Source: Acidilobus sp. 7A (GTDB taxonomy: Archaea > Thermoproteota > Thermoprotei_A > Sulfolobales > Acidilobaceae). Taken from it: a DNA stretch of 64,000 bases. Under the pieces are notes generated by a model. It was not told where the DNA came from. It saw only the letters and a list, made by a program, of their open reading frames with translations, and did not search any database. A program made the translations under genes and the position numbers. The first letter of the stretch is position 1; every line of letters begins with the position of its first letter. The stretch lies in assembly GCF_003431325.1 (NCBI RefSeq), contig NZ_CP010515.1, positions 930,001 through 994,000 of the forward strand, written 5' to 3'. Positions 15,160-50,394 of this stretch are shown here, one piece after another.

Positions 15160-15230
15160 GCCTTCCTCAGCTAGGCGCTTCCGTGAATCGATTATCTCAT
15201 CGGCGTTGCCCACCATTTCAAGCCCCTTCA
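15160..15230 (-). repeat. Decayed copy of the segment at 20350-20425
   Basis: About 70 bp here (ctaggcgcttccgtgaat, then attatctcatcggcgttgcc and caccatttc) align with 20350-20425 with a few substitutions and a 2-bp deletion. In the 20.4 kb copy the minus strand encodes LEMVGNADEIIS before a stop; here the same residues LEMVGNADEII survive just downstream of the MFS gene. It is a partial duplicate of that short coding region. The rest of 14933-15227 holds no recognisable gene. Confidence 0.6.
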
Positions 15231-18416: not shown

Positions 18417-18887
18417 AGGGTTTTTGACGCCTCCCCTCTTCGCAGAAGCCTAGCGTAGGAATGTTTAGGGCCAGGTCATTGTGCTGAGGCCCCTCCAGGG
18501 CCTTCTAAGGAGCAACCGCTTAGGCCTGACGACATAGCTGCAGGCGGCCTTGAAGGCCTGGGCTATTGACGCCCCTAGCGCTTGGCGCTGTAAAGGTCGA
18601 CAGTCAGCGCTGTAGTTGAGTTGCGATCCTGCTGCAGATGATGTGGACAGAGACCACCGCCTTAGCCTTATGACCTCCTCAAGCGGCCTCAGGGTCCTCG
18701 CTACCCTCCTCATCGTCTATGTCGCCTCAGACGCCTGCTCACGCCAGGCCCTCGCCTCAGGTCGTTGAGGGCCCTTAGGCAAGCGTAAAGCTAACCTACA
18801 CCTCCTCAGCCTCCTCCCCTGCTGCCTGCGAGGGCCTTCCCAGCCAGCGAAGTCGTGGAGTCCTTTAAGCCTCCCTAAGGGCCTTTA
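18417..18887. other. Gene-free stretch
   Basis: A short T-tract (GGGTTTTTGACG) just after the regulator may terminate it. Beyond that, both strands are broken by stops; a minus-strand frame at 18465-18713 has no recognisable pattern, and plus-strand pieces (RVLATLLIVYVASDAC) may be an old coding remnant. No promoter or RNA gene was seen. Confidence 0.4.
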
Positions 18888-18971
18888 GGGGGTTTAGGCT
18901 TCATTGGGCTTGATATAGCTTGATATCAAGCCCTCCTCCCTTGGCTTCACAGCCCTCAGGGCCCCTTTCAT
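18888..18971. repeat. Dispersed repeat half B, copy 1 (second copy at 50058-50141)
   Basis: About 83 bp are the same as 50058-50141 with a single mismatch seen (ccctcctccc against ccctcttccc). The repeat contains an 11-bp perfect inverted repeat, GGGCTTGATAT at 18906-18916 and ATATCAAGCCC at 18923-18933, around a 6-nt loop. In both copies the repeat spans the 3' end of a minus-strand reading frame. Confidence 0.85.
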
Positions 18972-19070
18972 CGGGGCCCATATCACAGGGCTCCGCCCCC
19001 TCAGGGCAACCCCGACCCACAGCTCCCCCTTCGTCTCATCAGGGTCATAGCTGTGGGGAAATCCCCGCAT
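18894..19070 (-). CDS. Small 58-residue ORF inside the composite repeat
   Basis: Minus-strand ATG at 19070 opens MRGFPHSYDPDETKGELWVG and runs to a TAA at 18894, with PMKGALRAVKPREEGLISSY near the end. A good Shine-Dalgarno (AGGAGGT, 8 nt spacing) precedes the ATG and a TATA-like sequence lies about 45 bp further up, in the conserved segment 19078-19150. The last 25 codons are identical in the repeat copy at 50.1 kb, where a different frame (a TPR-like protein) is also open, so the coding status of this frame is not certain. No homologue is recognised. It could equally be a relic of the TPR-like gene end fused to a foreign 5' region. Confidence 0.4.
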   Translation of the reverse strand: MRGFPHSYDPDETKGELWVGVALRGRSPVIWAPMKGALRAVKPREEGLISSYIKPNEA

Positions 19071-19077
19071 CCTGAGG

Positions 19078-19150
19078 TACCTCCTGTATATGCTGATTGC
19101 GGTGACAACTTATAAACTCATATGAAAGTTGAAACAGCTACGTAGGGCGC
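19078..19150. repeat. Dispersed repeat half A, copy 1 (second copy at 46038-46113)
   Basis: Roughly 73 bp are shared nearly base for base with 46038-46113, including tgctgattgcggtgacaac, then ttataaa and tatgaaagttgaaacag. It contains a TATA-like ACTTATAAA readable on either strand and, on the minus strand, an AGGAGGTAC ribosome-binding sequence at its left end. It therefore looks like a mobile promoter/leader segment. Confidence 0.85.
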
Positions 19151-20361: not shown

Positions 20362-20520
20362 CTAGGCGCCTCCGTGAATTGAGATTATCTCGTCGGCGTT
20401 GCCCACCATCTCCAGCTCCCTCCCCTCAACGTACAGCCTGTGGTACTGCTTGGCGACGGTGTCGTAGAGCGCGTCCCCGGTCCTCGAGGCGAGGACCTCA
20501 AGCATTATTGCCGCGGTCAT
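20362..20520 (-). CDS. Short ORF or gene remnant downstream of the permease
   Basis: From ATG at 20520 the minus strand reads MTAAIMLEVLASRTGDALYD and ends LEMVGNADEIISIHGGA and a stop at 20362. The frame stays open upstream of the ATG (EAEFNSKEFLRLLGH) to a stop near 20613, overlapping the end of the permease gene one base out of frame, so the protein may originally have been longer or fused to it. Helical, with good codon bias. A decayed copy of its last 20 codons is at 15160-15230. No family recognised. Confidence 0.45.
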   Translation of the reverse strand: MTAAIMLEVLASRTGDALYDTVAKQYHRLYVEGRELEMVGNADEIISIHGGA

Positions 20521-44387: not shown

Positions 44388-45779
44388 TTGAGGGCTAGGA
44401 GGTCTATCTCAACTGTTGCCCTGGCGACCATCATAATTGTGGTGGTAGTGGTAGCGGCGGTCGGAGGCTACATGGCTTACGTCTCGACAAGGCATCACGT
44501 TACTACCACGACTACAACCACGCCCACGACGACTACTACAACAACGTCTACAACTACGTCTACATCAACAATCACTCCCACGACAACGACGTCTGCACCT
44601 ACGTATATAACGATCGGCGTGGTCTACGACTCCACAGGCTCCTACGCTACATCCTCTATGCCTGAGTACGAAGGGTTAGAGCTCTGGGCCAACTGGGTCA
44701 ACAGCCACGGAGGGATCTACGTTAAGGAGTACGGCAAGAACCTAACAGTTAAGATCATAGCCCTCGACGCCGGGAGCAACTCGCAGACGGCCCTCAGCGA
44801 CTACGAGCAGCTGGTAGATGTTGACCACGTCGATATACTTGTGGCCGACTTCGGCTCGGTCATGACGGCGCCGGGCGTGAGCTTCACCAACTCCAGCCAC
44901 GTGCTGTTCTGGGACGTGACGGGCAGCTCCTTCGCCTTCTTCGTTAACAACAACTACATAGTGCTCACGAGCCTGCCCGTCTCGCCCTACTTCATCCTCT
45001 ACGTGCCTGGCTTCCTGCACACGCTCGGCATACACAACGTGGCCGTCATATATGACGAAAACGACTTCAACGCCTACCAGTCATACTTCCTGGCGCCTGG
45101 CCTTAAGTCGTATGGGATCAACGTGATCTACAACACCAGCGTACCGACCTCGACGTCTGACTACTCGAGCATAATCGCGACCCTTGAGACCCTTCACCCG
45201 CAGGCAGTCTTAGAGCTCGGCTACCCGACCAACGACATAGCCTTCCTGAACCAGCTGGCCAGCGCGCACGCCTGCTTCCCGCTGGTCCTGACGAACTTCC
45301 CAGGCCAGCTGCTGCCGACCTTCCTCAGCCAGGTGGGAGCTAACATGAACGGCACGTTCACCCTGGCCTACCCGCCCATAGTTAGCTACACGCCGCAGCT
45401 CGCGGCGAAGCTCGGGCTCAAGTGGTGGGGGCCGACCTATGAGGAGTTCGCCTCCCTTTGGGAGAGCACCTACCACACCCCGCCGAACTTCCTGGCCATA
45501 GCGGGCTTCAACGCAGGGCTCATAATAGAGGGCGCCATAATTAACGCCGGCTCGCTCAGCCCGTCAGCGCTGAAGGCCGCGGTCCTTAGCAACTTAAGCG
45601 GGAAGGTCATGACCATTGACGGCATATTCAACGTGACCTCCAACGGGATGCAGGTCGGCGAGAACCCGATACCGGCGCAGGTCTGGGTCTGGCCCAACGG
45701 CACCACCACCGTCAACCTGCTCTACCCGTCATCGTATAAGAATGGGACAGCTGTATACCCCGCCCCATGTCCGCCTTAA
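44388..45779 (+). CDS. livK: Branched-chain-amino-acid-type periplasmic-binding protein (LivK-like)
   Basis: A 463-residue extracellular binding protein with TTG start (SD-like GAGGT at 44376-44380). It has a short basic N-terminus, one anchoring helix (LATIIIVVVVVAAVGGYMAY), a Thr-rich linker of about 45 residues and a type I periplasmic-binding fold: ITIGVVYDSTGSYATSSMPE, NLTVKIIALDAGSNSQTALS, HTLGIHNVAVIYDENDFN and IAGFNAGLIIEGAI. Sequons (NSSHVLF, NGTFTLA, NVTSNG) show surface exposure. It completes the HAAT transporter. The first 40 residues are nearly the same as those of the unrelated sugar-binding protein at 1.5 kb. Confidence 0.85.
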   Translation: MRARRSISTVALATIIIVVVVVAAVGGYMAYVSTRHHVTTTTTTTPTTTTTTTSTTTSTSTITPTTTTSAPTYITIGVVYDSTGSYATSSMPEYEGLELWANWVNSHGGIYVKEYGKNLTVKIIALDAGSNSQTALSDYEQLVDVDHVDILVADFGSVMTAPGVSFTNSSHVLFWDVTGSSFAFFVNNNYIVLTSLPVSPYFILYVPGFLHTLGIHNVAVIYDENDFNAYQSYFLAPGLKSYGINVIYNTSVPTSTSDYSSIIATLETLHPQAVLELGYPTNDIAFLNQLASAHACFPLVLTNFPGQLLPTFLSQVGANMNGTFTLAYPPIVSYTPQLAAKLGLKWWGPTYEEFASLWESTYHTPPNFLAIAGFNAGLIIEGAIINAGSLSPSALKAAVLSNLSGKVMTIDGIFNVTSNGMQVGENPIPAQVWVWPNGTTTVNLLYPSSYKNGTAVYPAPCPP

Positions 45780-45786
45780 TATAACT

Positions 45787-45835
45787 TAAGATCTTAATTT
45801 CTTTTTAATTTTTTATTTTATTTCTTTATAATACA
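45787..45835 (+). terminator. T-rich terminator after livK
   Basis: Starting 8 bp after the stop, the sequence runs AAGATCTTAATTTCTTTTTA then ATTTTTTATTTTATTTC, several U-tracts in a row. The rest of the gap to 46037 is GC-rich and gene-free. Confidence 0.65.
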
Positions 45836-46037
45836 TACTCGACTACCTTCTCAACGACCTCTATTAGTTCCCAGCAATCCCAGCAGTGCGTCTAAGGGGT
45901 TCAGCTCTCATACAGGTTCACGTTGCCTTACGGTCATAGCCTCATCCCTGTTCCCCCGCGCCCCGCTCGGGATTTCATCGGGCTTGGGGGCGCTCAGGGC
46001 CACCCCAGGGGCCCCACATCTTGAGTGCTCGGTTACG

Positions 46038-46113
46038 TACCTCCTGTTGTATATGCTGATTGCGGTGACAACTTATAAAACTATATGAAAGTTGAAACAG
46101 TTACGTAGGGCGC
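46038..46113. repeat. Dispersed repeat half A, copy 2
   Basis: Almost identical to 19078-19150 (tatatgctgattgcggtgac, aacttataaa, tatatgaaagttgaaacag), including the TATA-like sequence and the minus-strand AGGAGGTAC. Sequence beyond it at 45950-46037 is only loosely like that at 18.97-19.07 kb, and the short minus-strand ORF is broken here (stop after about 14 codons). So this copy keeps the promoter/leader half of the element and has lost the rest. Confidence 0.85.
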
Positions 46114-46292
46114 TGAGCGCAGGTTCTCAGGAGGGTGAGAGCCGAAGTCAGGAGGCCCCTGAGGGGTTGACGTCATAAGCGATGCCCACGACGCCCGTAG
46201 AGGCTCCCAGGGTAAGGTCGACTTTGAACTGCCAACAACCAGCTTTCACCGATGGCTGTGCTCCCGGCCATAGAGGTCGTCAGGCCGGGCTT

Positions 46293-50057: not shown

Positions 50058-50141
50058 AGGGGTTTAGGCTTCATTGGGCTTGATATAGCTTGATATCAAG
50101 CCCTCTTCCCTTGGCTTCACAGCCCTCAGGGCCCCTTTCAT
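50058..50141. repeat. Dispersed repeat half B, copy 2
   Basis: Matches 18888-18971 at all but one of about 83 positions, including the 11-bp inverted repeat GGGCTTGATAT (50076-50086) and ATATCAAGCCC (50093-50103). The flanking sequence on both sides differs from the 18.9 kb locus. Confidence 0.85.
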
Positions 50142-50394
50142 AGGCCCTCCTGGCCTCCTCATGACGCCCAGCGCTCTCCAGGCATATCGCCAGTCCATGC
50201 CACGCGCCAGGGTTCTCGCCATCGCATGAATTAATGTACGCCTCGTAAAGGACCTTGCCGACGTCATACCTCATTAGGCAGATGGAGGCCTCAGCGATCT
50301 TGTAGAGGCTCCTGCACGCCGCGTCAGAGCTCGTCATGCCGAAGCCCACAGGGTACAGGCTTAACGCGTGACCTAATTTAAAGGTTAGCCGCAA
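50071..50394 (-). CDS. Short TPR-like protein ending inside the dispersed repeat
   Basis: A 107-residue helical protein with tetratricopeptide-like helices: LYKIAEASICLMRYDVGKVL, AYINSCDGENPGAWHGLAIC and LESAGRHEEARRAYERG. The last 25 residues (GPEGCEAKGRGLDIKLYQAQ) come from the repeat and also occur in the 18.9 kb copy. It may therefore be a TPR gene whose 3' end was replaced by the repeat. The shorter frame on the same strand (50064-50267) overlaps it and is less protein-like upstream. Nothing else is seen between 49873 and 50057 or 50395 and 50583, the latter AT-rich at its right end. Confidence 0.5.
   Translation of the reverse strand: MRLTFKLGHALSLYPVGFGMTSSDAACRSLYKIAEASICLMRYDVGKVLYEAYINSCDGENPGAWHGLAICLESAGRHEEARRAYERGPEGCEAKGRGLDIKLYQAQ

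Follow-up and report, generated by a model that had tools for sequence, protein, structure and literature searches.

Transposons of the IS607 family (ISC1904, ISC1926, IS607, IS1535) carry the genes for TnpA and for TnpB, an ancestor of Cas12. IS607 is published to have GG termini, to be inserted at GG targets and to generate no target-site duplication, and it is described as having no inverted repeat at its ends (PMC6188088). Archaeal MITEs and PATEs, such as the Sulfolobus SM elements and the Haloquadratum PATEs, are short, multi-copy and transposase-free, and arise by deletion of the core of TnpB-type transposons (PMC3119063, PMC10969869). PATEs originate from Y1 (IS605) elements, and some of them consist of only ~52 bp of fused ends. 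In ISDra2, TnpB binds an RNA of ~150 nt (reRNA), which is composed of the 3' end of tnpB, the right end and ~16 nt of the host flank (PMC8612924). RAGATH-18 is an omegaRNA of bacterial IS607 elements. Among RAGATH-18 RNAs in bacteria, 64% adjoin an IS607 TnpB (PMC11061315), and the rest set a precedent for omegaRNAs that have no TnpB next to them.

The element compared with these systems here is at 18.9 kb of the window, the whole stretch of 64,000 nucleotides that was analysed (C1:930001-994000 of the single-contig genome of Acidilobus sp. 7A, 1,539,049 bp). Judging from sequence comparison, it is almost certainly a chimeric non-autonomous derivative of TnpB transposons, with parts from two families, here called A and B. 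With its IS607 TnpA, its TnpB, the GG/CC termini and the lack of a target-site duplication, the master of family A resembles the IS607 family. Unlike the members of that family, the window element encodes neither protein, and only the C-terminus of TnpB remains; it is a derivative of the IS607 family, not a full member. A further difference is seen at the ends of family B, which form an imperfect inverted repeat. The window element is similar to archaeal MITEs and PATEs in its small size, its copy number and the deletion of the core. Unlike PATEs, window-type elements keep ~150-200 bp of the tnpB 3' end, and related solo copies also keep an internal hairpin. The retained part has the same location as ISDra2 reRNA and RAGATH-18, and the host flank would be the guide. 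Unlike RAGATH-18, the present elements are archaeal and have no Rfam match: none was seen in the window, RAGATH-18 included, and neither RAGATH-18 nor any other relevant family matched in six loci at E <= 0.1. In addition, unlike in ISDra2 reRNA and RAGATH-18, a hairpin inside the zinc-finger codons appears to be part of the present RNA. The features of the window are as follows.

18889-19149, minus strand: chimeric non-autonomous element of 261 bp, with a B-type left end, a tnpB 3' end and an A-type right end
19077-19149, minus strand: B-type segment, the left end (GCCCTACGTAGCTGTTTCAACTTTCAT...) and the start of the tnpB remnant
19110-19116, minus strand: TATA-like motif, TTTATAA, in the left end and facing inward; a putative promoter
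19077-19102, minus strand: stretch common to B-type and A-type tnpB, the site of the family join
18894-19070, minus strand: ORF of 58 codons, the remnant of an A-type TnpB C-terminus
18889-19102, minus strand: A-type segment with the 3' end of tnpB and the right end; predicted omegaRNA scaffold
18906-18933, minus strand: right-end hairpin GGGCTTGATATCAAGCTATATCAAGCCC, helix 9 in the covariation analysis
18873-18888, minus strand: host flank; should an omegaRNA be produced, these ~16 nt would be its guide (analogy with ISDra2 reRNA, PMC8612924)
45896-46112, minus strand: complete B-type non-autonomous element of 217 bp
50059-50144, minus strand: A-type right end alone, without a left end, 86 bp

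Both halves of the 18.9-kb element recur in the window, as an earlier sequence-only reading had noticed. Positions 19080-19150 match 46043-46113 with 92% identity over 71 nt (E = 1.7e-24 against the whole genome), and positions 18889-18974 match 50059-50144 with 98% identity over 86 nt (E = 9.1e-37). The DNA around them differs between the copies, as had been stated. The recurrence at 46.0 kb had been taken for a half of 73 bp and is really the complete 217-bp element. The search of both halves against the whole genome, proposed by that reading as a check, revealed many more copies outside the window. For the right-hand half there are eight more near-complete matches (89-95%), and for the left-hand half one of 98% at 693 kb and several of 75-87%. 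A 40-nt direct repeat at 15190-15229 and 20383-20422 (88% identity) is unrelated to the element.

Since the coding remnant lies on the minus strand, the promoter and ribosome-binding sequence once read on the plus strand have to be given up. The sequence GGAGGT is a part of tnpB codons (R-R-Y). The TATA box is not a plus-strand promoter, but the left end of the transposon does contain a TATA-like motif, which can point into the element when read on the minus strand. The inverted repeat is present and corresponds to the right-end hairpin. The ORF of 58 residues is the C-terminus of TnpB, a minus-strand tnpB 3' remnant; it is not a gene, and the proposal of a gene family falls with it. The view of a small mobile element was right in that the element is a deletion derivative of TnpB transposons; the missing transposase is explained by the deletion of tnpA and most of tnpB; and the suspected recombination agrees with a copy that is recombinant between two families.

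On the minus strand of the 18.9-kb element, positions 1-73 match family B and positions 48-261 match family A. The A-type segment is 97% identical to C1:693161-693374 of an IS607 element. The switch of families is located within the tnpB stretch CATATACmGGAGGTAC. Because this stretch is common to both tnpB genes, homologous recombination or template switching between A and B would be the simplest cause of the chimera. Related elements have a TTTATA-like motif in their left ends as well.

The left-hand half is the right end of the master of family A, an intact element with tnpA and tnpB at C1:693161-~695110. Its 208-codon tnpA frame is followed downstream by a 434-codon tnpB frame. The TnpA scores 219.5 bits against the NCBI IS607 transposase model NF033518 (cut-off 110), contains PF00239 and PF12728, as a serine recombinase with an N-terminal HTH, and matches the solved IS607-family TnpA chains of ISC1904, ISC1926 and IS1535. 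The TnpB contains PF07282 and matches solved TnpB chains. A second A copy, 96.6% identical, is found in the sister species G001. As its flanks are different, the ends of A can be placed near (G)AGAAACTG... and ...AAACCCC. The right end at 50.1 kb supplies the last ~20 codons of a 107-codon TPR-like ORF (50071-50394), the TPR-like motif of which stops exactly where the transposon sequence begins; apparently, a gene at 50059-50394 was truncated and re-ended by a transposon end. Elsewhere in the genome, locus L064 (C1:188067-189984) contains a second IS607-type TnpA frame followed by an open frame of 482 codons, which appears TnpB-like with a degenerate zinc-finger region.

In a minus-strand alignment, the copies of the right-hand half extend well beyond it into one element of ~217 bp. 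A search with this 217-bp sequence retrieved ten essentially end-to-end copies from this genome and seven from G001; two other congeners, of which G003 has a single-contig genome, yielded none. Each B copy consists of a left end of ~45 bp, tnpB from codon ~366 to the stop, and a right end terminating in ...GAGCTGAACCCC. All copies begin at the same tnpB codon. The full-length B relative in this genome is L063 (C1:1498913-1500420), which combines a left end of this kind with a small divergent ORF and a TnpB frame that has lost one zinc-finger knuckle. In this genome, the TnpB of the B type is damaged; in G001 it appears frameshifted. B relatives with complete zinc fingers and similar ends are present in other archaea. 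TnpB relatives are found chiefly in metagenome genomes of Ignisphaera and Desulfurococcaceae. L062 (C1:665835-667452) and L063 share the B-type left end and then continue into different TnpB genes and right ends, and so form another chimera of the same kind as the 18.9-kb copy. Both contain the small divergent ORF (MAKFIYVESTVIKYRGG...), which in these B-type masters has no Pfam or NCBIfam match.

The left ends start with (CG)CCC and the right ends finish with CCCC, while the flanks are unrelated. Target-site duplications, another check that the sequence-only reading had proposed, were not found at the copies, and their left flanks share no tetranucleotide. The GG/CC termini and the absence of duplications agree with the published behaviour of IS607. 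The ends of the B consensus form a clear, imperfect inverted repeat (0/2000 shuffles as good). The ends of the composite do not (407/2000 shuffles as good as the real ends), and for the A master 96/2000 shuffles matched its own ends. The orthologous flanks of six insertions were found without the element in a sister species, G003. These flanks are ~72-85% identical and align poorly at the junction, so none is a base-exact empty site. In G001, locus L161 (C2:13450-13889), compared with 45376-46272 of the window, shows the two flanks of the 46.0-kb element in opposite relative orientation; an inversion breakpoint coincides with the insertion site. The 217-bp B copies and the 261-bp composite are, like MITEs, short, multi-copy and without a transposase gene, and their ends are related to those of the masters L061 and L063. 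The copy number and the element-free orthologous sites bear on mobilisation in trans indirectly. IS607 tnpA reportedly works in vivo only when it lies near the ends (PMC6188088), an argument against easy mobilisation in trans.

The part retained by solo elements is the region that matches the location of ISDra2 reRNA. For the A-type RNA of the 18.9-kb copy, folding gives z = -4.1, far better than chance. Across 29 aligned A-type copies from five genomes, with a structure derived from the 18.9-kb sequence itself, 49 doubly compensated cells were counted versus 21.7 +/- 4.2 in shuffled controls, which ignore the relatedness of the copies; slid controls gave no more than 14. Support is strongest for helix 112-118/127-133 and for the right-end hairpin 160-170/177-187, and covariation is also seen in internal helices of the 3' part. 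The A-type RNA has a conserved structure that spans the tnpB 3' end and the right end, as a TnpB omegaRNA would. The tnpB reading frame is still partly readable in many solo copies, so some of the conservation may be inherited. The B-type RNA folds no better than shuffles (z = +0.9, one sequence); some covariation is seen on 41 copies, weaker than that of the A type.

A covariance model of the A-type region has matches in 65/229 genomes of the class. By the criterion used, 46/58 sampled A-type copies have no upstream TnpB; the sample comes mostly from many-copy genomes and is hence biased. Most of the sampled solo copies consist of a left end with a TTTATA-like motif, a spacer, a hairpin, a short linker and the tnpB 3' part. 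The spacer between left end and hairpin is about 30-40 bp, and about 75 bp in genome G037. The hairpin corresponds to the zinc-finger codons of tnpB (CCTGCCCACGATGCGGGT...GACCCGAGTGGGCAGG in full copies), and the intervening coding sequence of ~70 nt, up to the 3' part, is mostly lost. Retention of the hairpin with loss of the coding sequence is the pattern that would be expected from selection on RNA, not on protein. The outer stem differs by lineage, GACGCCTC/GAGGCGTC, GCCCGCCC/GGGCGGG or GCTCGCTCAC/GTGAGCGGG, and all of these still pair. The mean energy of the hairpin arms is -13.6 kcal/mol for their own combination, -14.2 for swaps within a genome and -10.7 for swaps between genomes. Three examples (two solo, one full) fold with z = -5.2, -2.4 and -4.7. 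In G037, where the left-end TATA is ~75 nt from the hairpin, many solo copies with an insertion after the left end (L121, L137, L141, L190, L192, L197, L199 and others) contain a further TATA-like sequence, TTATATAA, which precedes the hairpin by ~30 nt. The zinc-finger hairpin is absent from the window composite and from the B copies, so an RNA function is better supported in the relatives than in the window copy.

The main rival to an RNA function is an ordinary MITE: the same deletion derivative, in which the DNA ends alone matter, no guide RNA is made, and the tnpB 3' part is kept for the transposase-binding site and the hairpin. This is a serious alternative, if somewhat short of an even chance. 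The B-type and composite copies retain little beyond the ends and ~150-200 bp, IS607-family TnpA binds ~70 bp of an end (PMC6188088), the B RNA is not unusually stable, and the strong inverted repeat of the B ends is typical of MITEs. DNA ends alone do not readily account for the solo A copies of several lineages, which keep the zinc-finger hairpin ~70 nt inside tnpB and far from the right terminus. The lineage-specific, re-paired stems and the covarying internal helices also speak against this explanation.

Derivation from IS200/IS605 elements with a Y1 transposase, i.e., a PATE in the strict sense, is very improbable. A palindrome at the right end and a TnpB common to both families would fit, and PATEs are known in an archaeon (PMC3119063), but no Y1 transposase (Y1_Tnp) was found in this genome, the A master has an IS607 serine recombinase, and neither the GG/CC-type ends nor the diverse left flanks fit such an origin. 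An old duplication of one small gene, since diverged, could be imagined from the two pairs inside the window, and the sequence-only reading had named it, with only these copies in the genome, as what would overturn its proposal. It is refuted by the many dispersed copies with sharp ends and unrelated flanks, the identified masters and the orthologous G003 sites without insert.

The origin and function of the elements can be proposed as follows. The deletion of tnpA and most of tnpB would have left the left end, the last ~55-60 tnpB codons and the right end, and recombination in the common tnpB stretch would have joined a B left end to an IS607-family A right end. Movement of the copies would be the work of a TnpA of the IS607 type, a serine recombinase produced from elsewhere in the genome. 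What is retained may be transcribed as an omegaRNA, probably from the TATA-like motif of the left end, with the flanking host DNA as the guide. TnpB acting in trans could then cut copies of the site that are free of the element, and so help the element to persist. This whole mechanism, with TnpB using in trans the guide RNAs that solo copies make, is given a probability of about 0.55 on the sequence evidence. The broader proposal approaches but does not reach an even chance: an abundant class of omegaRNA-only transposons in Thermoprotei, composed of ends, an inward promoter and a guide-RNA scaffold including the zinc-finger hairpin, might parasitise in trans the TnpA and TnpB of full-length IS607 elements, each solo copy programming TnpB to protect its own site. 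No description of solo omegaRNA elements in archaea was found in the literature covered, with few subscription papers among it, which does not prove novelty; nor did it describe the zinc-finger hairpin that is kept or how widely solo copies are spread in Thermoprotei.

The solo copies can be considered as a natural deletion experiment, in which the parts kept show what an archaeal IS607 omegaRNA needs. With full-length elements alone, it would be difficult to define the limits of a 5' hairpin inside a protein-coding zinc finger. Should the solo copies be genes for guide RNAs, a non-autonomous transposon can make use not only of a transposase but also of a nuclease, and these genomes would contain natural libraries of TnpB guides.
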